Source of the DNA: Prevotella sp.
Lineage (GTDB): Bacteria > Bacteroidota > Bacteroidia > Bacteroidales > Bacteroidaceae
Direction of reading: 5' to 3'
Length of the DNA: 64,000 nucleotides
NCBI GenBank assembly: GCA_017548605.1
Contig: JAFYZT010000037.1
Span: 1-64,000 of the forward strand
Below the pieces are notes generated by a model that was not told the DNA's origin, did no database searches, and saw only the letters and a program-made list of their open reading frames with translations. Shown piece after piece: positions 22,801 through 37,386 of the stretch. Each line of letters starts with the position of its first letter. Position 1 is the stretch's first letter. The translations under genes were made by a program, and so were the position numbers.

Positions 22801-24171
22801 GTCAGCCGTCTGTCAGAGGTGCGCTTCGTCGACCCGAACACGGACATCGTGCTCTCTACGGTGAATGTGCCCTACGGTTCGTCACTCTATTACAAAAACA
22901 AAGATGTGGTCGAGTCGGGAACGCTCATTGCCAAATGGGATCCGTTCAATGCGGTTATCGTCACTGAATATGCGGGCCGTCTGAAGTTCCGCGATGTGGA
23001 GGAGGGTATCACCTACAAGGCTGAGACCGACGAGACGACTGGTCTGACTGAGAAGATTATCATCGACTCGAAGGACAAGAGCCGTGTACCTACCTGTGAT
23101 ATCATCGATGCTGACGGCGGTGTTGTCGGAACCTATAACTTCCCCGTGGGTGGCCACGTGGTGGTCGAAGACGGTCAGGAAGTGCGCACCGGTACCACGC
23201 TGGTCAAGCTGCCGCGTAGCATGGCCAAGGGTGGTGATATCACCGGTGGTCTGCCACGTGTTACCGAGCTCTTCGAGGCACGTAACCCGTCGAATCCTGC
23301 CATCGTGAGTGAGATTGACGGAGAGGTGACCATGGGACGTATCAAGCGTGGTAACCAGGAGATTGTCGTTACGTCGAAGACGGGCGAACAGAAAAAATAT
23401 CTTGTGTCGCTGTCGAAACAGATACTGGTGCAGGAGCACGACGCTGTACGTGCCGGTACTCCACTCTCCAACGGTGTCATCACACCCAACGACATCCTTG
23501 CCATTATGGGCCCCACGGCGGTGCAGGAATACATCGTCAACGAGGTGCAGGATGTGTATCGTTTGCAAGGTGTGAAGATCAACGACAAGCATTTCGAGAT
23601 TATCGTTCGCCAGATGATGCGCAAGGTGCAGATTATCGAGCCGGGCGACACCACGTTCCTCGAGCAGGAGGTGGTCGACAAACTCGACTTCGCTGCTGAG
23701 AACGACCGTATCTGGGGCAAGAAATATGTCATCGATGCCGGTGACTCGGAGAATATCCGCAAGGATCAGATTATCACGGCACGTAAACTGCGCGACGAGA
23801 ACTCGTCGCTGCGCCGCCGCGACCTGCGCCTGGTGAAGGTGCGCGATGTGGTGCCTGCCACCTCCACGCAGATTCTTCAGGGTATCACACGTGCGGCACT
23901 GCAGACGAAGAGCTTCATGTCGGCGGCTTCCTTCCAGGAAACGACAAAGGTGCTCAACGAAGCAGCTATCCGTGGTAAGGTCGATACACTCGAAGGCATG
24001 AAGGAGAACGTTATCTGCGGTCACCTTATTCCTGCCGGCACAGGACTGCGTCAATGGGAGAAACTCATCGTAGGCTCCAAGGAGGAATACGACCGTATGC
24101 TGGCCAACCGCAAGAACGTGCTCGACTTCTCCGACGAAGAAGTGGTCATCGACGACACGGTGCAGATATAA
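19834..24171 (+). CDS. rpoC: DNA-directed RNA polymerase subunit beta'
   Basis: 1445 residues. N-terminal zinc-binding domain with [20 protein letters not shown] (four Cys), the catalytic magnesium loop NADFDGDQM (three Asp), the bridge helix/trigger-loop region ([19 protein letters not shown]) and a second zinc site (C...[13 protein letters not shown]). With RpoB, RpoA and omega it forms the polymerase core. The length fits the family in Bacteroidota and no frameshift is seen. Confidence 0.98.
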
Positions 24172-24179
24172 TCTTTGTG

Positions 24180-24281
24180 GTGAGGGGTGAGTGGTGAAAA
24201 GTGAGAGAATACTCCGCCAAGGATATTTTCTCATCCCTTACCCCTCACTCCTCACCTCTTTTCTCACCCCTCACCTCTCAC
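24180..24281. repeat. GTGAGGGGTGAG / CTCACCCCTCAC low-complexity inverted repeat
   Basis: GTGAGGGGTGAGTGGTG and AAAAGTGAGAG on the left face several CTCACC- and CCCCTCAC-type units on the right (to CTCACCCCTCACCTCTCAC). It sits directly after rpoC and can fold into a large imperfect stem. The same unit recurs at 9279-9302, 28470-28490 and 31373-31395. Confidence 0.7.
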
Positions 24282-24302
24282 TATTTAAATAGACTATCGT
24301 CC

Positions 24303-24318
24303 AAACTCCTAAACTCCC
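24303..24318 (+). repeat. Two 8-bp leader repeats AAACTCCT/AAACTCCC before the DUF3467 start
   Basis: AAACTCCT and AAACTCCC sit 8 bp ahead of the ATG at 24327; the same unit occurs four times before rplC, and related AACTCATA units precede the lipoprotein gene. Confidence 0.6.
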
Positions 24319-24326
24319 AATAAACA

Positions 24327-24647
24327 ATGGACAATAATAACAAATCACAGGGTCAACAGCTCCAGATTGAGGTGTCGCCCGACATGGCGCAGGGAGTATA
24401 TTCCAATTTCGCCATCATATCGCATACCAGTAGTGAATTTGTCGTCGACTGTGCACAAATGATGCCAGGCGTGCCCAAGGCCGTCGTCCGCAGTCGTGTC
24501 ATCCTTGCACCTGAACATGCCAAGCGTCTTGCCATGGCTCTCCAGGAGAACATCGTCAAGTACGAGCAGGAGTTCGGACGCATCGAACTGCCCCAACGCC
24601 AGCCCCGCACCATCAATCCTTTCGGCAATGGTAAGGGAGAAGCGTAG
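24327..24647 (+). CDS. DUF3467 family protein
   Basis: 106 residues fitting DUF3467: LQIEVSPDMAQGVYSNFAIISHTSSEFVVDCAQMMPGVPKAVVRSRVILAPEHAKRLAMALQENI makes up nearly the whole protein, with a disordered Pro/Gly tail. Function unknown to me; the constant position just after rpoC in Bacteroidota suggests a link to transcription. No membrane segment or catalytic motif is visible. Probably read through from rpoC, and followed by a hairpin. Confidence 0.85.
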   Translation: MDNNNKSQGQQLQIEVSPDMAQGVYSNFAIISHTSSEFVVDCAQMMPGVPKAVVRSRVILAPEHAKRLAMALQENIVKYEQEFGRIELPQRQPRTINPFGNGKGEA

Positions 24648-24684
24648 GGAAGATTAGAAGATTATAAAATTATAGGATTTGATG

Positions 24685-24719
24685 CCCCTCTGACACGTCA
24701 GAACGACGAGTCAGAGGGG
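24685..24719 (+). terminator. Hairpin after the rpoBC-DUF3467 unit
   Basis: CCCCTCTGAC-A-CGTC, loop AGAAC, GACG-A-GTCAGAGGGG: a 14-bp stem with one A-A mismatch, then ACATTTCTAATTCTT (weak T-rich tail). The rest of the 24648-24994 spacer carries no gene apart from the promoter below. Confidence 0.7.
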
Positions 24720-24828
24720 ACATTTCTAATTCTTCGCTTATCGTTCCTCGCTCATCCCTAAATTTGTCCCTTTGTTCTTTTGTCTAAAATATCTGTTCCT
24801 TCGTCTGTTGCTAAATTCTCCACAAAAA

Positions 24829-24860
24829 TTTGTTGCTTTTAAATTAATGTTGTAACTTTG
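24829..24860 (+). promoter_or_regulatory. Promoter of secreted protein A
   Basis: TTTG (24829-24832), 20 bp, TAACTTTG (24853-24860), giving a leader of about 125 bp. Confidence 0.75.
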
Positions 24861-24994
24861 TCGGCGTAAACAGATTTGGTGACTTTACCCTAATTTTAGA
24901 GAAAGCAACACAATATATAGCCGAGAGGCTGTTTTTGAAACGTACAACACACTGATTATCAGCGCAATATAACATCTAAACATTAATCATAATT

Positions 24995-27900
24995 ATGAAA
25001 AAATTTTTACGTTTTTCTCTATTGACACTGCTCATGACAGTGTTCAATGGCGCATGGGCGGCGGAAGCGACTTTCACTTTTGCAAGTGGGTCAATTCCTT
25101 CAGCTGGTGGCGATTTTACTTTGAATGAAGTGACATGGAATGCTTCCATCACTTGGAAAACCGATGGCCAGACCTATATGGGGTATGATGGAACCAAAGG
25201 TTTACAAATAGGTAGTGGCTCAAAGCCTGCTTCTGCAGTTGTGCTTTCTACCTCTGGTATTTCTGGTAATATCACTTCCGTAAAAGTGAATGCTAGTGTG
25301 GCTAGTCAGGGTACAACAACTCTTGATGTTTCTGTTGGCGGTACTGCTTTTGGTGAGCAGGTGACTTTACAAACGTCTGCCACCGAATACACCTTTACTG
25401 GCACAGCAGCTACTTCTGGCGTAATTGTAATATCCTTCAACCAACCTTCTACGTCGAAGGCAATCTATGTAAAATCCATAACCGTAGTTACCGAGGATTC
25501 TGGCACAGAAGAACCTGTGGATCCTACTGTAAATATATCCGGTACGTCGGTTGCTGCTGGAAAGACACTTTCCATTTCTTTCCCAAATGATTTGGACATT
25601 GAGTTTGAATCTAGCGATGAAAGTGTTGCTACTGTTGATGTTGATGGTGTTGTAACGGGTGTTTCAGAAGGAACAGCTGATATTACGGCCACGTGGTCTG
25701 GAGATGATAATTACAATGAAGGAGAAGTAACCTTCACCGTGACCGTGACAGCGCCTGTTCCTGCTACTACTTATGTGAAAGTAACCAATGCCAATCAACT
25801 TGTTGCAGGCAATGAGTTTATTCTCGTGGCAACAGGCTTTAATAAGGCAATGGGTTCGCAAAACGATAAAATTCGCAATGTTGTTGATGTGACTTTGTCC
25901 GATGATAAGGTCTCCATCACAGATGAAGCAGTTGCTGTGATGACCCTCGGGGGAAGTACTGGTGCTTGGACATTCAACACCGATGATGGCTATATATCAT
26001 ATACAGGTTCTAGCAATCAGGTATATGTAGCTACTGAAACAAGTGCTGCTACTGATTGGACAGTTACTGAAGACTTCCAGTTGGAAAGTGTAAATGTTCC
26101 TGGACGCGTGCTGAAATACAACTCTGGTTCACCCCGTTTTGCATGCTATGCCACTGGTCAACAGACTGCTGTCCTCTTTGTGAAAGAGGGTAGTCCCATT
26201 AATGAGAATGTCCCCGTCTGCACCATCACCACTGATCTTACAGAACTCGAAGTGGGTCAGCCCATCCGTTGGGAAGACTTCACCATCTCCTATGCCGAAG
26301 GTCTCACTGAGGATGACGTGGACGTAGATTATGAGGCTTCATCGAATTTCTTTAATGACCTCGAACAGGGTCTGGTGCCTACGGAAGAGGGAACAGCCAC
26401 CATCACCTTCACCTTCACCTATGATGGCGAGGGTAACTATAGTGACGTAGAGAAGACCTTCATCTTCAACGTAGTGGACAACCGTCAGGATCCCGAACTC
26501 GCCTTCACTCCCAACACCATAACCATCGTGCAGGGAGAGGAATTCGAGACACCGGTATTATCCTCTGTTAATGATGAGTACTTCTTCGAATCTGGTCTTG
26601 CGACAGTAGAAAGTGACAATCCAGACGTGGCCTACTGGGATGATGAGAATGGTCTTCAACTCGGTGACGAACTGGGAACAGCCGTCATCACCGTATCATA
26701 CGATGGCAATGAATACAGCCGTTTGGATGCTGGTTACAAGTCGGGCGAGGCCACGCTCACTGTGACTGTGGTTGATGAATTGCCGACTGAAGAGACGGCT
26801 ACTTTTGATGCCACTATAGACTTGGCTACAACAGGTAATACCGCAGGAGCCTGGAGCATCACGAAGGATGGTCTGACGATTTCTGCCGATGGTGGTATCG
26901 GTGGCAATGGAACGGATTATCGTATCTATAAGAACGCTACCTTCACAGTGTCTTCTACTGTGGGTAATATCACGAAGATAGAATTTACGGCCGAAAGCAG
27001 CAATCCCGTTTCGGGCTTCGGCACCGTGGAAGGATTAAATGGCGACACATGGACTGGCAATGCAGAATCGGTGAGTTTTACGGCTTCTGAGAAGCAGGTG
27101 CGTCTTACTTTGGTCAACATTACCTATGAACCGAATGGTGAAGCGCCCACGACTCCTATCTGCACCATGACCCAGTTGCTCACCAACCTGGAACTCGGAA
27201 AGATTTACGATATTTATGAATTGGTACAGGTGGAAGAGGCAGAAGGTGCTGATCCTTCCAAGATTAGCAGGGGTATCGGCGGCTATGGCGATAGCTTCGA
27301 TTATATTGGTGGCAAATATAAAGCTGATAAGGAGGGTCCTGCTCAGATGACCTTAACTTGGGAGTATTTCCCAGGAGAGGGTAACGAGAATCCGTATAGC
27401 AAAGTGGAGGAGACCTTCTATTTCACTATCGCTGAGCCGGTGGAATATCAATTTGACTTTAATGCCATTGAGAATTTGCCGACATCAAGTACCAGTTCTA
27501 CTGATGGTGACATTACCAGCGACTTAACCATTGAGGAAGACGGAGTGACTCTGGTCATCAGTCCAAGTACTTCTAGTACACCTAACCGCTGGTGGAGCAC
27601 CAACAACGGTCCACAACTGCGTGTGTATGGTGGTACGCTGACGTTCTCTTCTGAAGAGAATATCTCAAAGATTGAATTATATAATACAAAATGGAATGAC
27701 GACAACAGCGCAGATTCAGGAGAACTCACTAATTCTGGCTCTGTCGCGACATGGACGGGTTCTGCCAAGACGGTTGTCATCACCATTGCCGGTAATACTC
27801 AACTGGACAAGGTCGTTGTTGAAAAAGCCGTCGAGGTTGTTCCTGTGACCATCTCCGCATCGGGTAAGGCTACACTCTACTATGCTGAGAAGACCTTGAA

Positions 27901-28438
27901 GGTGGCTGAGGGTGTCACCGCCTATACTGCTGTGAAGGGTGTCAGCACCATCACGCTGACAGCCCTTGAGGATGGTATCATCCCTGCCGGTGTTCCCGTG
28001 GTAGTCAGTGGAACTGAAGGCAGTTATGAATTTGAAGTGATGACCAACTCTACAGCATCCTTCGAAGGTCAGAATGACCTTGTGGGCGTTGAAGTAGACA
28101 CCAAGGATGAAGAGGCTGGTTACAAGTACTACGTACTCTCTTGGAAGAACAAGAACAAGAATCCCGAAGAGGTTGGCTTCTACTGGCAGGCTGGCTCAAA
28201 GGGCTTGTGGGCAAACGTAAAGGCTCATCAGGCATACATGAAGGTACCCGAAGGCGTGGCTCCTTCTGATGCTAATGGCTTCAGCTTCACGTTCGACGAG
28301 ACTACGGGTATCACCACCATAGATGGTGACAGCACGCTCGACATGAACGCTCCGATGTATAACCTTTCTGGTCAGCGCGTGGATAACAGCTACCGCGGTG
28401 TGGTGATTCAGAACGGGAAGAAAGTTATTAAGAAGTAA
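24995..28438 (+). CDS. Large secreted multi-domain protein A (Ig-like, T9SS-like tail)
   Basis: 1147 residues. Signal peptide MKKFLRFSLLTLLMTVFNGAWA; a jelly-roll-like module (about 23-165; LQIGSGSKPASAVVLSTSG); a bacterial Ig-like type 2 domain (about 178-253; SSDESVATVDVDGVVTGVSEGTADITATW); a module seen in other Prevotella secreted proteins (259-400; AMGSQNDKIRN, GRVLKYNSGSPRFACY); further Ig-like stretches; two more jelly-roll-like modules (from about 601 and 817); a C-terminal module of about 170 residues (from about 947; ISASGKATLYYAEKTL, GVPVVVSGTEGSYEF, YYVLSWKN); and the tail MYNLSGQRV...NGKKVIKK from 1120. No catalytic motif is seen. Best guess: surface-displayed binding or adhesin protein. 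A small acidic gene follows. Confidence 0.8.
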   Translation: MKKFLRFSLLTLLMTVFNGAWAAEATFTFASGSIPSAGGDFTLNEVTWNASITWKTDGQTYMGYDGTKGLQIGSGSKPASAVVLSTSGISGNITSVKVNASVASQGTTTLDVSVGGTAFGEQVTLQTSATEYTFTGTAATSGVIVISFNQPSTSKAIYVKSITVVTEDSGTEEPVDPTVNISGTSVAAGKTLSISFPNDLDIEFESSDESVATVDVDGVVTGVSEGTADITATWSGDDNYNEGEVTFTVTVTAPVPATTYVKVTNANQLVAGNEFILVATGFNKAMGSQNDKIRNVVDVTLSDDKVSITDEAVAVMTLGGSTGAWTFNTDDGYISYTGSSNQVYVATETSAATDWTVTEDFQLESVNVPGRVLKYNSGSPRFACYATGQQTAVLFVKEGSPINENVPVCTITTDLTELEVGQPIRWEDFTISYAEGLTEDDVDVDYEASSNFFNDLEQGLVPTEEGTATITFTFTYDGEGNYSDVEKTFIFNVVDNRQDPELAFTPNTITIVQGEEFETPVLSSVNDEYFFESGLATVESDNPDVAYWDDENGLQLGDELGTAVITVSYDGNEYSRLDAGYKSGEATLTVTVVDELPTEETATFDATIDLATTGNTAGAWSITKDGLTISADGGIGGNGTDYRIYKNATFTVSSTVGNITKIEFTAESSNPVSGFGTVEGLNGDTWTGNAESVSFTASEKQVRLTLVNITYEPNGEAPTTPICTMTQLLTNLELGKIYDIYELVQVEEAEGADPSKISRGIGGYGDSFDYIGGKYKADKEGPAQMTLTWEYFPGEGNENPYSKVEETFYFTIAEPVEYQFDFNAIENLPTSSTSSTDGDITSDLTIEEDGVTLVISPSTSSTPNRWWSTNNGPQLRVYGGTLTFSSEENISKIELYNTKWNDDNSADSGELTNSGSVATWTGSAKTVVITIAGNTQLDKVVVEKAVEVVPVTISASGKATLYYAEKTLKVAEGVTAYTAVKGVSTITLTALEDGIIPAGVPVVVSGTEGSYEFEVMTNSTASFEGQNDLVGVEVDTKDEEAGYKYYVLSWKNKNKNPEEVGFYWQAGSKGLWANVKAHQAYMKVPEGVAPSDANGFSFTFDETTGITTIDGDSTLDMNAPMYNLSGQRVDNSYRGVVIQNGKKVIKK

Positions 28439-28447
28439 AAAAGTAAA

Positions 28448-28500
28448 ACTCGAGTGACGGGGTAATCTCTCACCCCTTACCCCTCACTTCTTACTACAGT
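28448..28500 (+). repeat. Leader segment shared by mini-protein genes (copy 1)
   Basis: About 53 bp, near-identical to 31353-31405. It contains GTGA-C-GGGGTAA...TTACCCC-TCAC, a hairpin, and ends at the ATG of the acidic mini-protein gene. Confidence 0.75.
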
Positions 28501-28677
28501 ATGATTATGAAAACAGAATATATCAAACCGGAAGCCCGTTATGTCGATATCGACATGGAGGCCATCATGGAAGAGATGCCTGCCAGTGAAGGTGAAGGCT
28601 ATGGCGATCCTATGACCAATGAGGCCTCCTTCGAGGAGGAGACGGCCCTGCCCGACAGCAAGTCGGTATGGGATTAA
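28501..28677 (+). CDS. Small acidic protein, copy 1 (58 aa)
   Basis: ATGATTATGAAAACAG opens a 58-codon frame; the third codon is a second possible start. The product has an N-terminal KTEYIKPEARYVDIDME motif, an acidic middle (EEMPASEGEGYGDP) and ends DSKSVWD. It holds 16 Glu/Asp in 58 residues, has no signal peptide, membrane segment or Cys. The frame is conserved with mainly synonymous or conservative changes in the copy at 31406, which supports real coding. Shorter than usual gene-finder limits. It sits 62 bp after protein A and before a terminator. I know no characterised family; accessory factor or peptide precursor are only guesses. Confidence 0.75.
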   Translation: MIMKTEYIKPEARYVDIDMEAIMEEMPASEGEGYGDPMTNEASFEEETALPDSKSVWD

Positions 28678-28679
28678 TT

Positions 28680-28713
28680 GAAAGGTAAAAAAGTAAAAAG
28701 GTAAAAAAGTAAA
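28680..28713 (+). repeat. GTAAAAAG-type repeat after the stop codon
   Basis: GAAAGGTAAAAAAGTAAAAA and further GGTAAAAAAG units lie directly between the mini-protein stop and the hairpin. The same arrangement occurs at 31584-31610, 35780-35801 and, reverse strand, 55911-55943. Confidence 0.75.
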
Positions 28714-28754
28714 AGTCGGTCCTTGCATTATCCATGTGCAGGGACTGATTTTTT
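28714..28754 (+). terminator. CAGTCCCTGCA-family terminator, copy 1
   Basis: AGTCGGTCCTTGCA - TTATCCATG - TGCAGGGACTGATT then TTTT. The stem has G-T wobbles relative to the other copies. The rest of the 303-bp spacer to protein B carries only the promoter at 28887-28920. Confidence 0.8.
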
Positions 28755-28886
28755 GTTATTTCTTTAACATTGAATTACCATGAATAAACCCAGGATTACC
28801 CTGTCGTAATTTTAATTTCTGATAATAGATGTATGATTGATGGCCATTTCTGTAAAAAACCACTCTTCACTAAAAATCATCTTCTT

Positions 28887-28920
28887 TTTGTTCGTTTGTC
28901 TAAAAAAATACGTACCTTTG
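28887..28920 (+). promoter_or_regulatory. Promoter of secreted protein B
   Basis: TACCTTTG (28913-28920) with a TTTG 22 bp upstream (28887-28890); a second TTTG at 28895 is too close. Confidence 0.65.
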
Positions 28921-28980
28921 CACCCGAAAATTGCTTCAAACTACTATAAGGCAAATCAATAACAACCAATTACTATCAAG

Positions 28981-31335
28981 ATGAAACAATTATTACGCTA
29001 TTTTATGTTGTCATTGCTGTGCGCAATGACTATGACCGCGTGGGCACAAACAACGCTCATCAATTACCCTACATCGGAAGATGGTATTATAGCCTGTGGT
29101 TCCACATTGAAGACTACGGTCAAGATCCACATGAACAAAGATGCTGTGAGTTGCTACCAATTGAAAAATGGTTACAACTCAAACGGTACATCGAATGGCA
29201 ATCATATCTTGCTTTCTGTTGAAGACGGCTTCAAAAAAGGTGATATTTTGACTATTGCCGGCGCCATCAACAATGATGATGAAACCAAATGGGGAACGGC
29301 TGTGTTGTTTACTATGGATGCAGAATTAAATGTGTCGGTCATTTATGACGGCTTTGCTAATTTTATCAACAGTCGCTTAGTAAATGACGACCCTGTTGAA
29401 GAGTCCTATACCCTTACGGAAGATTATGATGAACTATATCTTGGACGAAATGGTAACACTGGAGCAAATGTGACCCTTATCAAGGTGGTTCGTCCAGCCG
29501 ACGAGACGAAAGAGAATGTCACCATGTCATTCCCAGAAGAGAGTTACTCTGTAATGGAGGGAACGACGTTTGAAGCTCCCGAATTGACCGTGTTACCGGT
29601 AGTTTCCCCCATCACCTTCTCGAGCAGTAATGAAGATGTAGCAATGGTCGACGAGAACACTGGTGAAGTGGAAATAAAGGCACAAGGTGCCACCACCATC
29701 ACAGCCTCTTTTGGTGGCAATGACACCTATAATCCTGCTTCTGCCAGTTATACCTTGAACGTAACCAAAAATTATCATGGTACATTGTTGATTGACTATC
29801 CGAATTCCAAGGATGGTATCTTTATTTCTGGTACAACGGAAGAAGGAACAGTGAAGATACATACGAATACGGATGCTATCGATGGTATCGGTCTGAAAAA
29901 TGGTTATTCTAGTGGGACCACAATGAATGGTAACCACATCAAATTGGAAGTGGAAGGTGGCTTCAAGAAAGGTGATGTATTGACAATAGCGGGAGCTTAC
30001 AACAACAGTGCTGAGAAAGAATCCAGCGTGGCACTTTTCACTTCTCTGGATGGCGAAACAGCGACAGTCATCAAGGACGACTTCGCGCAGTTCATCAATG
30101 GTCGCTTGGTAAATGATGACCCCGTGGAGCAGACATACTCCCTTGAGGATGATTATGACGTTCTGTATTTGGGTCGTAATGGTAATACCACCACGTATTT
30201 GACGCTCATCACTATGGTACGACCGAATAATGTGGAGCCTGCGCCCGTAGAGCGGACCTATAGCCTTGTTTCAGAACCAGAAGATTTGACCTCTGGCAAA
30301 TATCTTATCGTTTGGGATAATAATTCTACTTATAATGCTTTTGATGGCAGTCTTGAGACGCTTGAAGGCGTGGGTAATTATCAGGAAGTGGAAATATCCG
30401 GTGATAATGAGATTGTCACAGACAAACCCATCTATTTCACCATTGATGTGGAAGCGGGTACCGTTCAGAGTGCCAGTGGCTATTATATCGGTGTCACTTC
30501 TAACAGCGTTGGCTTGGTGGGGCAAAGTGAAAGCGCAGATGCCTTTAACAACAATATTTTCGTCAACAGTCTCGGCCTCGGTCAGATTGATGCTGATTTC
30601 GAAGGTAGCGTGATGTCGCTCCGCTTCCGCTTTAAATCAGGCGATCATCGTTTCGGCTTTTATGATAAGACCAACGGCAATCTGAACACCTCCCCCATCC
30701 AGCTTTATAAAGAGGTGGTGGAAGAGCCTGAGGTTGTTCCTGTGACTATATCTGCATCGGGTAAGGCAACGCTCTACTATGCCGAGAAGACCTTGAAGGT
30801 GGCAGAGGGTGTCACCGCCTATACCGCAGTGAAGGGTGCCAGCACCATCACGCTGACAGCCCTTGAGGATGGTATCATCCCCGCCGGTGTTCCTGTGGTA
30901 GTCAGTGGAACTGAAGGCAGCTATGAATTCGAAGTGATGCCCAACTCTACTGCATCCTTCGAAGGTCAGAATGACCTCGTGGGTGTTGAAGTAGACACCA
31001 AGGATGAAGAGGCTGGTTACAAGTACTACGTACTCTCTTGGAAGAACAAGAACAAGCTTCCCGAAGAGGTTGGCTTCTACTGGCAGTCTGGCTCAAAGGG
31101 CATGTGGGCAAGCGTGAAGGCTCATCAGGCCTACCTGAAGGTGGCTGAAGGTGTGGCTCCGACTGACGCCAACGGCTTCAGCTTCACGTTCGACGAGACC
31201 ACGGGCATTGCCACCGTGGACAGCGACAGCACGCTTGACATGAACACCCCGATGTATAACCTCGCCGGTCAGCGCGTAGGCAAAGACTACCGTGGCGTGG
31301 TGATTCAGAACGGCATGAAAAAAGTAAAAAGGTAA
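28981..31335 (+). CDS. Large secreted multi-domain protein B (duplicated module, T9SS-like tail)
   Basis: 784 residues. Signal peptide MKQLLRYFMLSLLCAMTMTAWA; two tandem copies of a module of about 150 residues (23-180 and 267-416) sharing INYP/IDYP, TVKIH, LKNGY, GNHI, FKKGD, LTIAGA, VNDDPVE, YLGRNGNT; an Ig-like type 2 domain between them (SSNEDVAMVDENTGEVEIK); a module at about 425-580 (SLVSEPEDLTSGKYLIVWD); the C-terminal module (from 584), over 90% identical to that of protein A by eye; and the tail MYNLAGQRV from about 758. Its last residues, MKKVKR, run into the GTAAAAAG repeat, which supplies the stop. Function unknown; surface binding protein is an inference. Confidence 0.8.
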   Translation: MKQLLRYFMLSLLCAMTMTAWAQTTLINYPTSEDGIIACGSTLKTTVKIHMNKDAVSCYQLKNGYNSNGTSNGNHILLSVEDGFKKGDILTIAGAINNDDETKWGTAVLFTMDAELNVSVIYDGFANFINSRLVNDDPVEESYTLTEDYDELYLGRNGNTGANVTLIKVVRPADETKENVTMSFPEESYSVMEGTTFEAPELTVLPVVSPITFSSSNEDVAMVDENTGEVEIKAQGATTITASFGGNDTYNPASASYTLNVTKNYHGTLLIDYPNSKDGIFISGTTEEGTVKIHTNTDAIDGIGLKNGYSSGTTMNGNHIKLEVEGGFKKGDVLTIAGAYNNSAEKESSVALFTSLDGETATVIKDDFAQFINGRLVNDDPVEQTYSLEDDYDVLYLGRNGNTTTYLTLITMVRPNNVEPAPVERTYSLVSEPEDLTSGKYLIVWDNNSTYNAFDGSLETLEGVGNYQEVEISGDNEIVTDKPIYFTIDVEAGTVQSASGYYIGVTSNSVGLVGQSESADAFNNNIFVNSLGLGQIDADFEGSVMSLRFRFKSGDHRFGFYDKTNGNLNTSPIQLYKEVVEEPEVVPVTISASGKATLYYAEKTLKVAEGVTAYTAVKGASTITLTALEDGIIPAGVPVVVSGTEGSYEFEVMPNSTASFEGQNDLVGVEVDTKDEEAGYKYYVLSWKNKNKLPEEVGFYWQSGSKGMWASVKAHQAYLKVAEGVAPTDANGFSFTFDETTGIATVDSDSTLDMNTPMYNLAGQRVGKDYRGVVIQNGMKKVKR

Positions 31336-31352
31336 AAAAGTAAAAAGGTAAA

Positions 31353-31405
31353 ACTCAAGTGACGGGGTAATCTCTCACCCCTTACCCCTCACTTCTTACT
31401 ACAGT
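31353..31405 (+). repeat. Leader segment shared by mini-protein genes (copy 2)
   Basis: Near-identical to 28448-28500 (one substitution, CTCGAG to CTCAAG), with the same hairpin and the same junction to ATG. A longer GTAAAAAG tract precedes it. Confidence 0.75.
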
Positions 31406-31582
31406 ATGATTATGAAAACGGAATATATCAAACCGGAGGCCCGTTATGTTGACATCGACATGGAGGCCATCATGGAAGAGATGCCTGCCAGTGAAGGTGA
31501 AGGCTATGGCGATCCCATGACCAACGAGGCCACCTTCGAGGAGGAGGCTGTCCTGCCCGATAGCAAGTCGGTGTGGGATTGA
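31406..31582 (+). CDS. Small acidic protein, copy 2 (58 aa)
   Basis: 58 residues, differing from copy 1 only at about three positions (S to T in EA(S/T)FEEE, and TA to AV before LPDSKSVWD), while many third codon positions changed. That pattern points to selection on the protein. Same N-terminal KTEYIKPEARYVDID and C-terminal VWD. No signal peptide or known domain. It lies 70 bp after protein B and ends 28 bp before its terminator. Confidence 0.75.
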   Translation: MIMKTEYIKPEARYVDIDMEAIMEEMPASEGEGYGDPMTNEATFEEEAVLPDSKSVWD

Positions 31583-31610
31583 TTGAAAGGTAAAAAAGTA
31601 AAAAGGTAAA

Positions 31611-31648
31611 AGTTGGTCCCTGCACTATCATGTGCAGGGACTGATTTT
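31611..31648 (+). terminator. CAGTCCCTGCA-family terminator, copy 2
   Basis: AGTTGGTCCCTGCAC - TATCAT - GTGCAGGGACTGATTTT. The rest of the 333-bp spacer contains a CACTCGTCACTCATCACT repeat (31698-31722) and the next promoter. Confidence 0.85.
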
Positions 31649-31778
31649 ATATCTACTCCCTAACATTGAATTACCATGAATAAACCAAGAATTACCATCA
31701 CTCGTCACTCATCACTTGTCACTAAACTGAACTGCTAACGTTAAGCAATGTAAAAAAACTGTTTTTGTTCCCCTATTT

Positions 31779-31810
31779 TTTGGTTCTTACATTAAAATAA
31801 GTTATCTTTA
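31779..31810 (+). promoter_or_regulatory. Promoter of secreted protein C
   Basis: TTTG (31779-31782), 20 bp, TATCTTTA (31803-31810; one mismatch to TAnnTTTG). Confidence 0.55.
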
Positions 31811-31915
31811 GGCCGATTTTGGGAAAAATTGACAAATCTGCAATAGGATAGGGAGCTTTCCTCCCCTCGAACGATTTAACACAAGATACTTAAATACCAT
31901 AATAACAACACGATT

Positions 31916-34900
31916 ATGAACAAATTATTACGTTTTTCATTGATGACACTGCTATGCGCAGTGTTCGGATTCGCGTATGGACAGAGTGAGCTGGAAAGCC
32001 CATGGAGTCATACGTTTTCTACGACTGATAAGACGTTCACCGCTGATGGGACAGAGACCCTCAGTGGTGCTGACTGGACATTGGCTGTGGATTGGGCTGA
32101 TCCTACTCTGACAGATTACAACAAGGACTCTTCAAAGGGTATGAAAATCGGCTCGAACAGCAAGATTCCTAATGGATTGACCCTCTCATCCAGTTCTTTC
32201 CCTGGCACCATCACACAGGTGTCGTTTACCTTTGCTGCACGCTCGAAATCGACCATCAACGTGGCAGTCACGGTGGGTGGTGTCGCTTTCGAGGCTCCAA
32301 CGACGCAATTCTACAACCAGCAGAGCCTGCAGGAGGTGGTGTTTACAGGAACAGGCACCGGCGAAATCGTTATCTCCATTCAACATGATGAAGCGTCTGA
32401 ACAGAATGGTGCCATTTACATGGGTCAACTGGGGGTTGAGTTCACATCATCCGCCAAGGCAGCCAAACCCGTTATCACTCCCGAAGACGGCTCGGTGTTC
32501 CTCACTGAGAGCCAGGAGGTGACGATTACCACGACTACTACCGGCGCTACCATTCACTATACGGTCAATGACGGTGCGGAACAGACATACACCGGTCCCT
32601 TCACCATCACCGAGACGAGCACCATCACCGCTTATGCCTCTGCTGACGGTATGGACGATAGTGCAGTGGCCACGGCCACGATAACCAAGAAAGTGGCTCC
32701 GGAAAGCGATTGGTATGAGTCGTTTGACAACATGAACGGTGTCGGTGGCAACGACGGCACATGGAAAGGCATCACCCAAACACCTGCTTTCGAGGGTGCC
32801 GACCAAGAATGGACGGTTGAAAATACTTATGCCGGCTACAGATGTGCCTCTATCCGAAAGAATGGCTCTCTCACCACAAGTGGCTTGAACCTCGAGGGTG
32901 ACGGTACGTTGAACTTCAGTGCCGAGGCATGGGGCACTGACACGGGTAATTTCTATGTGGCCATCGTTGGCGACGGAACGTTCGTGGAAGACCAGGCCGG
33001 TGTTGAATTGACAGAAGAGAATACCGTAGCCAAAGTGTCTTTGAACAAGACTGGTACATGGAAGGAGCATAGTTTGCAATTTACAGGAATAACCACTTCG
33101 AGTGAATTCAAATTCTATCTGCCCGCAGACAAGCGAGGCTTCCTCGACGAGGTCTATTTCGTGATGGGTGGCGAGACACCACCCGTGGTGGAGGTTCCTG
33201 TTCCCACTTTCTCTCCCGCTGCCGGTGAGGTGGAGGCGGGCTCTACAGTGACCATCGCTGCTGAGAGTGATGACTATGAGGTATACTATACCGTTGACGG
33301 CACATCACCTATTGACAACAGCAGTGCCCTGGGTGGCGACGCTACCGTCACCGTGACCATCAACGAGGCTGTGACCATCAAGGCGGCAGCGATGGACGAT
33401 GAAGGCAACTGGAGCGAGGTGGTAGAGGCTGCCTATACCGTCAAGGCTGCTGTGGTGATTGAGGAACCTGTCGAGGAAGAACTGCCGGAGGGAACACTCT
33501 TCTGGGAGCAGTTCAGTCAGGTAAACGGTACCGGCGGACGTGACGGAGCTTATACGGGCTCCATCGCCAGCAGCGACATCTTTGGCAACTCAGAAGACGG
33601 TGAGCACCTGCGCACCACCGACATGATATGGGAATACATGAGCAAGGATTATAAATGCTATGGTGCAAGCGCATGCATGAAGTTCGGTTCGAGTTCGGTC
33701 GACGGCGAGTGCATGACAAGGGAGATAGCATTGTCCGATGCCGGTACGCTTACCTTCAGCGCGGCTGGATGGGGTTCAGGTACTAACACGCTGACTATCC
33801 AAGTCATGAATGGCTTCTTGTTCGACGAGGGCGAGACGCAATCGACAACGAAGACTGTCACGCTGACCAACGGCTCGTGGGAAGATTATTCCTTCAACAT
33901 CGTGAAAGCGGAGTCGTCCACCTCCGGTGGTAACCTGCAGATACACTTTACGGGCAGACGCGGCTTCATCGACGACATCAAGGTGGTGGAAGCCGGTGCC
34001 GTGGTGGCCAACACACCGACAATAACGCCCGAAGGCGGCATCTTCACTGAGCCAGTACAGGTGACCATCGCCTCCGACCAGAGCAATGCCTCCATCTACT
34101 ACACGCTTGACGGTACAGATCCTACCGACGAGAGCACGGCATATACGGGTCCGTTCATGCTTAATGAGACGACGACGGTGAAGGCCATCGCTTACATCGG
34201 CGAAACACCGTCGAACGTGACCTCCGCCACCTTCACCTTCCCGACGGTGTGCAACAACATCGCGGAGTTCCGCCAACTGGAAGTGGGTGAGACGGCCATC
34301 CTCAAACTGACCGATGCCCAGGTGCTTGTAGTCGCAGGCAATAATGTCTATGTGCGTGACAATGGTAGCGACCCAAGTCTGACGGCCAATGCTATCTGCT
34401 TCTATCAATGCAACCTCGGCTCGGATGTGGTGTCGGGAAGCGTCATCAGCGGACAACTGACAGGAAAGAGGGCCGACTACAACGGACTGCCTGAAATAAC
34501 CAACGCCACAGACGTAAACATCACCGTAAATGGCGTACAGGGTAGCCCGTCATGGGTGAAGAACGTGGAGAACCAGGAAGATGTGACCATCGACAACTAT
34601 GTGGCCGACCTCATCATGTTCAAGGGCAAGGTGACGAAGAATGGTAACAATTTCTTCATTGGCGACATCCAACTTTATGTGAACAACCAGGTGGCGGCAG
34701 CCAACAGCGTATATGGCGGCGAAGTGCAGAGTGGCGACAAGATTGCCGACCTTGTGGAAGACGGCAAGTTCTATCTCGTAGCGGGTATCTTTACTTCCTA
34801 TGGCAGCAGCAAAACTCCCGAACTCTTGCTCATGCACGTAGAGGAGAAAGATGAGGAGGTGAATGTGGAATATACATTCAACAGTTACGGTATAGGTACG

Positions 34901-35467
34901 CTCTACTACAGCGACCTGCGCTTTGGCGAACTGCCCAAGGGCGTGCAGGCTTCGTACATCACCGGCATCGAGAACAAGGAACTGACAGAACAGTTCCTCA
35001 CTACCAACAACGGTTACTTCATCCCCTGCGGATGCCCGGTCATCCTGCGAGGCACACCGAACAGCACAGTGACGCTGCAGGGTAAGAAAAAGAGCGTCGA
35101 AGGTGAGACCTTTGACAATAACATGCTCCGTGGTACTGATGAGGAAGAGTCGTGCGAATTAGCGGATGCCGAATATCTTTACTACCAACTCTCTGCCAAG
35201 GATGGTGAGCCAGGCTTCTACTGGGGTGCGGAAGAGGGTGCACCGTTCACCAACGGTGCTCATAAGGCGTTCCTCCCGCTGACTCCCGACCAGGCGGCCA
35301 TGTCTCCTGCCTTCTACTTCGACGGAACGGCAACAAGCATCACTTCTGTTACAACTGACGGTATGCTCGACCTGAACGCTCCGATGTACAACCTCTCTGG
35401 CCAGCGCGTGGATAAGTCGTTCCATGGCATAGTGATTCAGAACGGGAAGAAAGTAATTAAGAAGTAA
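31916..35467 (+). CDS. Large secreted multi-domain protein C (chitobiase-C-like repeats, T9SS-like tail)
   Basis: 1183 residues. Signal peptide MNKLLRFSLMTLLCAVFGFAYG; jelly-roll-like N-terminal module (23-180), related to that of protein A; three chitobiase/hexosaminidase C-terminal-like repeats (about 184-262, 428-512, 699-775; e.g. IYYTLDGTDPT...YTGPF); two carbohydrate-binding-like jelly-roll modules (about 262-420 and 525-697, ending RGFLDEVYF and RGFIDDIKV); an OB-fold-like region (about 776-985; AILKLTDAQVLVVAGNNVYVRD); a divergent copy of the C-terminal module (985-1155; GTLYYSDLRF, GCPVILRG); and the tail MYNLSGQRV...NGKKVIKK. The module mix suggests glycan or surface binding rather than catalysis. 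The gene is more GC-rich than A and B. Confidence 0.8.
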   Translation: MNKLLRFSLMTLLCAVFGFAYGQSELESPWSHTFSTTDKTFTADGTETLSGADWTLAVDWADPTLTDYNKDSSKGMKIGSNSKIPNGLTLSSSSFPGTITQVSFTFAARSKSTINVAVTVGGVAFEAPTTQFYNQQSLQEVVFTGTGTGEIVISIQHDEASEQNGAIYMGQLGVEFTSSAKAAKPVITPEDGSVFLTESQEVTITTTTTGATIHYTVNDGAEQTYTGPFTITETSTITAYASADGMDDSAVATATITKKVAPESDWYESFDNMNGVGGNDGTWKGITQTPAFEGADQEWTVENTYAGYRCASIRKNGSLTTSGLNLEGDGTLNFSAEAWGTDTGNFYVAIVGDGTFVEDQAGVELTEENTVAKVSLNKTGTWKEHSLQFTGITTSSEFKFYLPADKRGFLDEVYFVMGGETPPVVEVPVPTFSPAAGEVEAGSTVTIAAESDDYEVYYTVDGTSPIDNSSALGGDATVTVTINEAVTIKAAAMDDEGNWSEVVEAAYTVKAAVVIEEPVEEELPEGTLFWEQFSQVNGTGGRDGAYTGSIASSDIFGNSEDGEHLRTTDMIWEYMSKDYKCYGASACMKFGSSSVDGECMTREIALSDAGTLTFSAAGWGSGTNTLTIQVMNGFLFDEGETQSTTKTVTLTNGSWEDYSFNIVKAESSTSGGNLQIHFTGRRGFIDDIKVVEAGAVVANTPTITPEGGIFTEPVQVTIASDQSNASIYYTLDGTDPTDESTAYTGPFMLNETTTVKAIAYIGETPSNVTSATFTFPTVCNNIAEFRQLEVGETAILKLTDAQVLVVAGNNVYVRDNGSDPSLTANAICFYQCNLGSDVVSGSVISGQLTGKRADYNGLPEITNATDVNITVNGVQGSPSWVKNVENQEDVTIDNYVADLIMFKGKVTKNGNNFFIGDIQLYVNNQVAAANSVYGGEVQSGDKIADLVEDGKFYLVAGIFTSYGSSKTPELLLMHVEEKDEEVNVEYTFNSYGIGTLYYSDLRFGELPKGVQASYITGIENKELTEQFLTTNNGYFIPCGCPVILRGTPNSTVTLQGKKKSVEGETFDNNMLRGTDEEESCELADAEYLYYQLSAKDGEPGFYWGAEEGAPFTNGAHKAFLPLTPDQAAMSPAFYFDGTATSITSVTTDGMLDLNAPMYNLSGQRVDKSFHGIVIQNGKKVIKK

Positions 35468-35476
35468 AAAATAACA

Positions 35477-35563
35477 AAGCCCCCTCCCCATCCCTCCCCG
35501 AGTGGAGGGCGTAGATACTTCACATGGTTTTTTCTCCCCCTCGGGGGAGTAAGTGGGGGGCTT
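35477..35563. repeat. GC-rich inverted-repeat pair with AAGCCCCC ends
   Basis: AAGCCCCCTCCCCATC...GAGTGGAGGG on the left and CTCCCCCTCGGGGGAG...TGGGGGGCTT on the right face each other, with outward AAGCC(C/T)CC ends as at 1400-1591. It lies between protein C and the third mini-protein, where copies 1 and 2 have the GTGACGGGGTAA leader instead. Confidence 0.75.
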
Positions 35564-35577
35564 AATTCTTGATAGTT

Positions 35578-35787
35578 ATGAAAAAATATATCCAACCCGC
35601 AGTAAAGCAGCAGGACCTCGAGGAGGACCTTATGCTGAAGATTTCCAACACGACAGGCGACGAGGGACAGTTCCTCAATGAAGGTTTCTTTGATGACCTT
35701 GACGATGACCTCGAAGACGACCTCAAAGCCGCCGAGACGGATGCCCGTGTAAGTAATGTCTCCAACCTGAACGTCTGGGAAAGGTAA
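35578..35787 (+). CDS. Small acidic protein, divergent third member (69 aa)
   Basis: Starts at ATG 35578; a TTG at 35569 is in frame but less likely. KKYIQPAVKQQDLEEDLML parallels KTEYIKPEARYVDIDME of the other two; an acidic core follows (FFDDLDDDLEDDLKAAE) and the end SNLNVWER parallels KSVWD, with the stop formed where the GTAAAAAG repeat begins. 20 of 69 residues are Asp/Glu. No signal peptide. Its position after protein C matches the other two pairs, so the pairing is unlikely to be chance. Function unknown. Confidence 0.75.
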   Translation: MKKYIQPAVKQQDLEEDLMLKISNTTGDEGQFLNEGFFDDLDDDLEDDLKAAETDARVSNVSNLNVWER

Positions 35788-35801
35788 AAAAGTAAAAAGG
35801 T

Positions 35802-35861
35802 AAAAGTCAGTCCCTGCAAGGGTGTGTCATGAACGGCACTCCCATGTAGGGACTGACTTTT
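35802..35861 (+). terminator. CAGTCCCTGCA-family terminator, copy 3
   Basis: AAAAGTCAGTCCCT and AGGGACTGACTTTT form perfect 14-bp arms around a 32-nt loop. Confidence 0.85.
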
Positions 35862-35894
35862 ATGTATGTCTGCCACGGGAATTCTTCTTCCAAA

Positions 35895-35940
35895 CAACGA
35901 ATTACACGGATTATTATTCCCACAACGAATTACACGGATT
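35895..35940 (+). repeat. Direct repeat CAACGAATTACACGGATT x2
   Basis: Exact 18-bp copies at 35895-35912 and 35923-35940 (28-bp period), followed by TTTCACGAATT variants to about 35970 and a CACTCGTCACTCATTACT repeat (36030-36055). Short open frames crossing this 455-bp spacer are translations of these repeats, and I see no gene in it. Confidence 0.8.
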
Positions 35941-36114
35941 TCACGAATTTTTTACATTGAATTTCACGAATTAAAAATAAAATTCATGATAATTTGCGGC
36001 CAATTCGCGGCAATTTACGTAGAAAAACACTCGTCACTCATTACTCGTCACTCGTTTGTTATGTGTTAAAAAAATATAAATCTTTTAGTTTCGCTCCAAT
36101 TCGAACAATATAAA

Positions 36115-36146
36115 TTAGGAGTGTTCGGGAATTATTTGTACCTTTG
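36115..36146 (+). promoter_or_regulatory. Promoter of the str-S10-spc-alpha superoperon
   Basis: TTAG (36115-36118, one mismatch to TTTG), 20 bp, TACCTTTG (36139-36146), about 97 bp before rpsL. It is the only strong promoter match seen before the 18-kb run of ribosomal genes. Confidence 0.7.
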
Positions 36147-36242
36147 CAGCCCAAAATGGTGTGTTGTGCCCACGGCCGACGCCCATCTTTTTGTGTGACA
36201 ATAACATAAACATAAATATATAAACAAAAAAAACAAAACAAA

Positions 36243-36623
36243 ATGCCTACAATCTCACAATTGGTAAGAAAAGGCAGAAAGGTGCTCGTAGACAAGAGCA
36301 AGTCGCCCGCCCTGGACTCATGTCCCCAGCGTCGCGGTGTGTGTGTGCGCGTCTACACCACGACACCTAAAAAGCCTAATTCGGCAATGCGAAAAGTTGC
36401 CCGTGTTCGTTTGACCAACCAAAAGGAGGTCAACAGTTACATCCCCGGAGAGGGACACAACCTGCAGGAGCACAGCATCGTGCTGGTGCGCGGCGGTCGT
36501 GTGAAGGACCTCCCCGGTGTGCGCTACCACATCGTTCGCGGTACGTTGGATACCGCTGGCGTGGCCAGTCGCACACAGCGTCGTTCAAAATACGGTGCAA
36601 AACGCCCGAAGCAAAAGAAATAA
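36243..36623 (+). CDS. rpsL: 30S ribosomal protein uS12
   Basis: 126 residues with the strictly conserved [12 protein letters not shown] and [13 protein letters not shown]. The streptomycin-resistance positions K43 and K88 are both Lys (wild type). It sits at the decoding centre. First gene of the str group. Confidence 0.98.
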
Positions 36624-36856
36624 GCTTCGAACTACAACCCAGGGTCTTTAAGCGTTGAGCCGTCGGTTGGTAAGCATGTGGGGACACATAACTTCGGAAC
36701 TATAGCCCAAAAGCTTAAAAACCCAGGGTTGAAAAAAGAAAACAACAACCGTTTTGCTGGAGATTTGTTAAGTCAAGGTTGAGTAAATGCCCAAGTGTGG
36801 GCGTTGAAGAACAGAGAAAGAACAGCCTCAGCAGACATTAATTTTTTAAATATAAA
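36624..36856 (+). promoter_or_regulatory. Long rpsL-rpsG intercistronic region, possible S7 autoregulatory site
   Basis: 233 bp without a gene. A direct repeat is visible (CTTCGAACTACAACCC and CTTCGGAACTATAGCCC), ACCCAGGGT occurs twice, and a hairpin TGCCCA-AGTG-TGGGCG lies near 36787-36804. In E. coli the S12-S7 spacer binds S7 to repress the operon; a similar role here is inference only. Confidence 0.4.
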
Positions 36857-37333
36857 ATGAGAAAAGCAAAACCCAAGAAGAGGGTTATCCTGCCGGATCC
36901 CGTCTTCAATGACCAGAAAGTGTCAAAATTCGTCAATCACTTGATGTATGATGGAAAGAAGACCATCTCTTATGAAATCTTCTACAATGCCCTCGACGTG
37001 GTCAAGAGCAAAATGGCCAAAGAGGAGAAATCACCACTTGAGATTTGGAAACAAGCACTCGACAACATCACTCCGCTCGTGGAGGTGAAGTCGAAGCGTA
37101 TCGGCGGCGCTACCTTCCAGGTGCCTACTGAGATACGTCCCGACCGTAAGGAGAGCGTGTCGATGAAGAACATGATTAATTTCGCACGCAAACGCGGTGG
37201 AAAGAGCATGGCCGAGAAACTGGCTGCTGAGATCATCGACGCCTATAACAACCAAGGTGGCGCGTTCAAGCGTAAGGAGGACATGCACCGCATGGCCGAG
37301 GCTAACCGTGCTTTCGCTCATTTCAGGTTCTAA
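36857..37333 (+). CDS. rpsG: 30S ribosomal protein uS7
   Basis: 158 residues, with [29 protein letters not shown] at the N-terminus and the family core [26 protein letters not shown]; ends [24 protein letters not shown]. It nucleates assembly of the 30S head and binds 16S rRNA; in several bacteria it also represses the str operon, relevant to the long spacer before it. Confidence 0.97.
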
Positions 37334-37386
37334 TATAGATATAAGGTAAATCAGTAACAAGGTAAAAAGGTAAAGGATATAAGGAA

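Follow-up and report, generated by a model that had tools for sequence, protein, structure and literature searches.

Organization of the locus

The stretch of DNA analysed here, which we call the window, comprises 64,000 nucleotides of a Prevotella sp. contig (JAFYZT010000037.1, positions 1 to 64,000 of the forward strand). It contains three consecutive modules (24829-35861), each consisting of a gene for a large secreted-type protein (A, B and C), a gene for a small acidic protein (a, b and c) and a hairpin. An earlier note on this DNA had described three such units of promoter, large signal-peptide protein with a distinctive C-terminal tail, small acidic protein and hairpin, and the reading frames, the TAnnTTTG or TAnnTTTG-like boxes and the hairpin folds bear this description out (Table 1). 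Comparison with other genomes shows that the tiny gene accompanies a particular domain close to the C-terminus of the surface protein, and this suggests an undescribed secretion helper.

Proteins A, B and C have hydrophobic, signal-like N-termini as judged by eye, and at their C-termini MYNLxGQRV leads into an end that resembles G(V/I)VIQNGxKK. The small proteins a, b and c are acidic, and inspection by eye found no signal-like N-terminus in them; a and b would each gain two residues, to 58, if an upstream ATG were used in place of the best one. The hairpins behind a, b and c have folding energies of -25.1, -27.2 and -46.0 kcal/mol, and 0 of 200 shuffles of each fold as well. A consensus terminator scan listed only the first of the three, that behind a. 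Repeats resembling GTAAAAAAGTAAAAAGG lie near gene ends in all three modules (28680-28719, 31319-31366, 31585-31624 and 35779-35818).

A TAnnTTTG box, which we take to be the Bacteroidota -7 consensus, occurs no more than 200 nt upstream of 14 of 23 large genes that are followed by a small gene (hereafter paired cargo genes), where 2.2 are expected from base shuffles. The same box occurs in one of the 23 gaps between cargo and small gene, which are shorter and were not length-matched. Because the box lies mostly before the cargo and rarely in the gap, and a hairpin lies behind each small gene in the window, one transcript per module is predicted, and we infer that cargo and small gene are co-transcribed.

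Table 1. Features of the three modules in the window.
Feature	Position	Strand	Basis
Promoter-like box TAnnTTTG, module A	24853..24860	+	sequence inspection; consensus assumed
Large protein A, 1147 residues: Big_2 domain, pre-tail domain and tail behind an N-terminus that looks signal-like by eye	24995..28438	+	reading frame, profiles
Pre-tail domain of A, residues 947-1108	27833..28318	+	profile match 7.4e-37; A is among the profile's own sequences
Putative T9SS-like sorting tail of A	28286..28435	+	tail-profile match 2.0e-23, with A itself in the query alignment; co-occurrence with SprA
Small acidic protein a, 56 residues	28507..28677 (from ATG)	+	reading frame, dN/dS
Terminator-like hairpin 3' of a	28711..28753	+	fold, terminator scan
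3' cassette of A, comprising domain, tail, gene a and hairpin	27833..28800	+	89% identity to 30730-31696
Promoter-like box TAnnTTTG, module B	28913..28920	+	sequence inspection; consensus assumed
Large protein B, 784 residues	28981..31335	+	reading frame, profiles
Pre-tail domain of B, residues 584-746	30730..31218	+	profile match 5.2e-37
Putative T9SS-like sorting tail of B	31183..31332	+	tail profile
Small acidic protein b, 56 residues	31412..31582 (from ATG)	+	reading frame, dN/dS
Hairpin 3' of b	31609..31648	+	fold
3' cassette of B, fused to a different N-terminal part	30730..31696	+	DNA comparison
TAnnTTTG-like box, one mismatch, module C	31803..31810	+	sequence inspection; consensus assumed
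Large protein C, 1183 residues: CHB_HEX_C_1 / Fn3_assoc domains	31916..35467	+	reading frame, profiles
Pre-tail domain of C, residues 982-1144	34859..35347	+	profile match 3.2e-28
Putative T9SS-like sorting tail of C	35312..35464	+	tail profile
Small acidic protein c, 69 residues	35578..35787 (from ATG)	+	reading frame
Hairpin 3' of c	35798..35865	+	fold

Distribution of the gene pair

Small proteins were sought with a profile of 12 sequences (A2), namely 11 of 17 initial matches and small protein c; it left out three frames inside other open reading frames (L016-L018) and three near copies, and it is built partly from sequences of the window's own genome. Two other profiles represent 45 small proteins (A4) and 16 tails (A3). 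At E up to 0.1 the own genome yields 70 tail matches, and at E up to 5 it yields 22 small-protein matches. A tail match stands 10-211 bp upstream of 21 of the latter, in the same orientation, with a chance expectation of 0.11; the sole match with no tail upstream is C35:5841. A count by eye in a second genome (G029) places 15 of 17 small matches behind a tail.

Across the GTDB family, 14 of 16 genera and 76 of 121 genomes have small-protein matches, and each of these genomes carries between 1 and 23 detected copies; eight of the 76 genomes have no tails and carry one or two small matches each. Family-wide, 96 of 107 small matches lie behind a tail found by profile, and one more (L224) behind a tail recognized by eye. 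These 107 are 109 matches (from 80 of 84 wanted regions, a set that excludes the own genome and rows with internal stops, and from 29 further loci, two with an internal stop) minus two truncated ones. The genomes that supplied these pairs represent at least six genera. Among 165 distinct domain-bearing pairs, from loci mostly chosen for the presence of a small gene, the median gap between cargo and small gene is 24 bp and 10 pairs overlap. An order-wide search at E 0.01 matched 5 of 158 genomes, three of the 158 being listed in the window's family; the profile is family-derived, and distant members may escape it.

The earlier note had suggested counting how often the small genes stand beside tail genes, and the counts for the own genome and the family refute random placement. 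The sequences thus give good support to a pairing of cargo and small gene that is real and general in this Bacteroidota family.

Association with the pre-tail domain

A search with the last ~200 residues of A indicates that the ~155 residues preceding the tail recur across many loci. In the own genome, 26 of the 70 tail matches have a small gene (21 by profile and five by eye), and the pre-tail domain is found in 22 of these 26 genes versus 11 of the 44 without a small gene (p = 1.4e-6). The corresponding counts are 18 of 19 versus 4 of 37 in G029 (p = 6e-10; 60 of 64 tails fetched, four dropped for too little downstream sequence) and 14 of 14 versus 3 of 14 in 28 loci of other genomes chosen by nothing but tail score (p = 3e-5; 29 high-scoring tails, one dropped for the same reason). 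A weakness of this comparison is that some of the tested sequences come from loci used to build the domain profile. For that reason a control profile was made from 17 domains of unpaired genes, and it gives 21 of 26 versus 10 of 44, 15 of 19 versus 6 of 37, and 14 of 14 versus 3 of 14 for the same three samples. The association persists, and its explanation as an artefact of a profile drawn from mostly paired genes is rejected.

A bond of the small gene to the tail itself is also rejected, since in the own genome a small gene was seen with only 26 of the 70 tail matches. As judged from these profile matches, the small gene follows the ~155-residue predicted beta domain before the tail, rather than the tail. 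Two loci (L039 and L044) keep the domain and the small gene with the tail elements reordered (GKLVIVKNGVKYNAAGAKL instead of YNLxGQRV...GKKVIVK). The functional pair proposed in the earlier note therefore stands in part: the pair is real and general, shows purifying selection and has no convincing known family, but the tail named there is not what the small gene follows.

Paired cargo in the own genome is also longer, with a median of 1131 residues (n = 23) versus 604 (n = 40; p = 1.3e-5); these medians exclude seven frames cut by the fetched region. Judged from the 25 of 26 Pfam families listed, it is adhesin-like (Big_2, fn3, Cleaved_Adhesin, GLUG, LRR_5), with one clear enzyme, an amylase, among the 26 paired cargo proteins. 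The 25 of 46 families listed for unpaired tail genes include many enzymes (peptidases, a nuclease, glycoside hydrolases) and a serpin, and also LRR and CHB_HEX_C_1 proteins.

Duplication of the 3' cassette

An alignment of modules A and B runs over 976 bases with 89% identity. It starts at codon 947 of A, takes in the 201 C-terminal codons of the large gene together with the whole small gene, and stops beyond the hairpin. At this identity the 3' parts of A and B are evidently copies of one cassette, and the alignment indicates that domain, tail, small gene and hairpin are duplicated as one block. Shared cassette DNA is also found between A and the C39 copy. Expressed as a fraction of the self-score, the similarity of A to B is 0.95 in the pre-tail region, 0.96 in the small protein and 0.81 in the tail; for A and C the values are 0.16, 0.15 and 0.67. 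The earlier observation that the pairing survives divergence applies to A and C, which have diverged in the small protein and the pre-tail region and have similar tails. A and B are not independent cases, because their 3' DNA is 89% identical.

The tail as a candidate sorting signal

The tail resembles the type A sorting domain of the type IX secretion system (T9SS) in its C-terminal site, in the order of its elements (Y-x-x-x-G-x-x-V ... G-x-Y-I ... K-rich end), in the many genes per genome that carry it and in its co-occurrence with SprA. It differs from that domain as modelled by TIGR04183 and PF18962 in that the window tail is shorter (about 50 residues) and tails are mostly missed by these profiles. 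TIGR04183 matches 2 of 16 tails (best E = 0.013) and PF18962 matches 1 of 16 (E = 0.043); neither matches A, B or C, and 0 of 26 paired cargo proteins match TIGR04183 at E 0.01. Two of the three window tails have a KxxxK terminus (GKKVIKK in A and C; the last residues of B are MKKVKR), a signature of the type A domain according to a figure legend in PMC9477747. The part of PMC10202324 consulted reports that the last 22 residues of one type A domain suffice for secretion and that the terminal lysines are needed. A seven-stranded Ig-like fold and an N-terminal Sec signal peptide are further marks of type A cargo; the structure model described below predicts a beta domain apart from a tail hairpin, and the N-termini of A, B and C look signal-like by eye.

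SprA (PF14349) and tails each occur in 59 of 60 genomes of the genus, and the single exception, G010, is the same for both. Among the 121 family genomes, 74 have tails and SprA, 44 have neither, two have tails only (G240 and G275) and one has SprA only (G344); Fisher's test on these four counts gives p = 2e-29. The tail counts cover up to 57 scored candidates per genome. G240 contains at least 56 tails and 16 small matches with SprA undetected, and an assembly gap is possible there. Two solved enzyme chains (4kca and 7jvi) show sequence similarity mainly in the tail, and 8bbl shows weak similarity over a longer stretch (0.003). Taken together with the genome counts, the tail appears to behave like a T9SS sorting signal, though by profile it is no member of the known families.

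The small protein

The small proteins of the 165 pairs are 41 to 76 residues long (median 60), with a median net charge of -6 and a charge of +2 in the first 12 residues. Their common layout is YIxP, a beta-like alternation, a variable acidic or glycine-rich stretch and a C-terminal W. YxxP is present in 165 of 165, partly by construction of the profile, and W falls within the last 25 residues of 154, with D or E next to it in 73%. In the 45-row alignment the small proteins are 17-43% identical to a, which has one named relative, in a Prevotella sp. metagenome genome (49% identity). Nonsynonymous divergence (dN 0.015-0.022) lies far below synonymous divergence (dS 0.137-0.353) among a, b and the C39 copy, which points to purifying selection. 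The 45 small proteins match no convincing family in Pfam or NCBIfam (best single matches 0.008 and 0.11), and no relative was found among solved structures. The literature searched, including the parts consulted of PMC11285876, PMC9477747 and PMC10202324, does not describe the small proteins or the pair.

Proposed role of the small protein

The small protein may serve adhesin-like T9SS cargo as its dedicated escort, probably in the cytoplasm, a reading to which we assign a probability of roughly 0.42. An escort acting before Sec export fits best because the small protein has no signal, its gene lies just behind the cargo gene, it tracks the domain and not the tail, and the paired cargo in the own genome tends to be long and adhesin-like; the missing signal sequence makes a cytoplasmic location the most likely one. 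The large adhesin-like proteins would be exported via Sec and then cross the outer membrane via the T9SS, with the tail as sorting signal. Each ~155-residue beta domain would be paired with its own small protein, translated from the same transcript right after the cargo. The small protein would hold or shield the fresh C-terminal beta domain so that the long cargo stays export-competent, and would remain in the cell when the cargo leaves. Cytoplasmic place, physical binding and escort role are what we infer from these features.

The window protein resembles the secretion chaperones of the type III class, which are small, acidic and cytoplasmic and are encoded beside their cargo, in being small, acidic, adjacent to a cargo gene and presumably cytoplasmic. 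It differs from them in having no sequence match and another secretion route, and its cargo binding is only presumed. Type B T9SS cargo with a clustered PorP/SprF partner provides a second likeness, a cargo gene with a dedicated neighbour, in the part of PMC10202324 consulted; the window partner differs as a ~60-residue acidic protein (56-69 residues) with no signal and no convincing Pfam or NCBIfam match. Cargo of a secretion system that comes with its own partner is thus already known as a kind, and this particular pair was not found described in the sources as far as consulted. A cytoplasmic escort for T9SS cargo was likewise not found in the literature searched, and a look for the word chaperone in that T9SS review (PMC10202324) found no occurrence.

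Several observations weigh against the escort reading. The length difference between paired and unpaired cargo is smaller in G029 (751 versus 580 residues, p = 0.015) and not significant in other loci (575.5 versus 493, p = 0.26). No tail was detected by profile upstream of 11 of the 107 family-wide small matches, one of which is L224 with its tail recognized by eye. The domain was not detected in 4 of the 26 paired cargo genes, five of the 26 pairs were added by eye, and 11 of the 44 genes with no detected small gene still have the domain. In two genomes, G010 (which has neither SprA nor tails) and G127, relatives of the small protein are located upstream of lipoprotein genes.

Structure prediction and co-variation add further points of this kind. 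In a model of the L050 domain, tail and small protein as one read-through chain (32 of 57 alignment rows contain the small part), a separate all-beta domain is predicted with confidence (predicted local distance difference test, pLDDT, 87-97 for residues 1-70 in blocks of ten and 69-91 for residues 71-130), together with a confident tail hairpin (79-90, residues 161-190). The small part scores 46-61 (residues 196-257) and has no confident placement. Docking is thus unsupported by this model, which neither supports nor excludes binding. The similarity of small proteins correlates weakly with that of their domains among non-duplicates (r = 0.25; partial r = 0.24 given the tail), and the values for the tail are 0.06 and 0.03. 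The domain correlation is 0.07 and not significant in the own genome (n = 21, 187 of 1000 permutations as high); in G029 it is significant at 0.50 (n = 14, 5 of 1000), but there tail similarity is correlated as well, with r = 0.34 (7 of 1000). Close co-variation of small protein and domain was dropped, as this evidence is weak and mixed.

The small gene might instead encode a peptide product, with the conserved N-terminal half (MKKxYIxPxxxVxxxxxxLLxxS) as a leader and the variable, glycine- and acid-rich rest as a peptide that is modified or set free. The first ~20 residues are indeed better conserved, the middle is variable, and an LLAxS-like stretch ends the conserved part in many members. 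We nevertheless consider this unlikely. The far C-terminus with its W and following D or E is conserved too, and no precursor-peptide model matches convincingly (the best hit is 1 of 45 members to an EntF induction factor, E = 0.11). Apart from the named genes, inspection of 23000-38000 by eye found no frame of the size of a transporter or maturase, and it found no GG- or GS-like site in a, b or c. The tie to one neighbouring domain would also stay unexplained.

A feedback regulator that senses unsecreted cargo via the pre-tail domain, and then lowers cargo expression or signals secretion stress, would be compatible with that tie. It would also suit an acidic protein encoded on the same strand at tight spacing, one per cargo. 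However, the small proteins match no DNA- or RNA-binding family in Pfam or NCBIfam, and up to about two dozen different copies per genome weigh in favour of a cargo-bound role over one in a network, so that regulation is an improbable function. More doubtful is a co-exported partner, which would cross the envelope with the cargo and complete or anchor it at the surface. The tied domain ends up outside and the N-terminal stretch is beta-prone (alternating hydrophobic residues), but no signal-like N-terminus was seen by eye in the members inspected, and piggy-back export is unlikely because Sec exports unfolded chains. Hitch-hiking, in which a small gene with no function for the cargo is copied along with 3' cassettes by recombination, has the shared cassette DNA of A, B and the C39 copy in its favour and is very improbable given the low dN, the retention of pairs in at least six genera despite the divergence of the small proteins from a, and the association with the pre-tail domain that recurs in other genomes.

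The escort reading can be extended, more tentatively, to a T9SS branch of Prevotella-like Bacteroidota with cargo-specific cytoplasmic escorts that dock on the pre-tail domain. These would be encoded in a portable 3' cassette that recombination can add to any N-terminal protein for surface display; we regard this wider proposal as possible rather than probable. If such escorts exist, they would explain how long adhesins reach the T9SS and would offer an entry point to surface display in these organisms. Mechanism aside, the tail matches of this genome add T9SS cargo candidates that public profiles mostly miss, and the small-protein family gains a directly testable genomic context.

Relatives in other contexts and flanking genes

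In G010, eight weaker relatives of the small protein were found (E = 3e-6 to 0.08). Five of them (L263, L267, L271, L275 and L277), with the KKxYxxP...LLAxS pattern, lie 23-54 bp upstream of lipoprotein-like genes, one is 120 bp before another frame, and two follow proteins with a different ending. The same arrangement, a small gene of this pattern upstream of a lipoprotein-like gene, occurs in G127, which belongs to another family (L129, L133, L139 and others). Nine such downstream proteins were compared with Pfam, and the best match was 0.00039, none being better than 0.0003. Together with G240, these cases suggest that the N-terminal half of the small-protein family may serve more than T9SS cargo.

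Other relatives stand apart from the tail as well. L169, L047, L042 and other orphans have no tail gene upstream, and L169 and L047 are near-identical across different genomes. L027 (in G009) and L028 (in G084) are relatives of a that lie ~200 bp behind a protein whose end, as judged by eye, is a dockerin-like repeat with no tail.

Elsewhere in the window, a further weak tail gene (2593-4017, 475 residues, E = 0.0016) was seen with no small gene beside it. Within 24171-36243 the modules themselves are flanked by genes identified by eye as rpoC on one side and rpsL-rpsG-fusA on the other. These are usually close neighbours, and the surface-protein genes therefore appear to have been placed into a conserved stretch.

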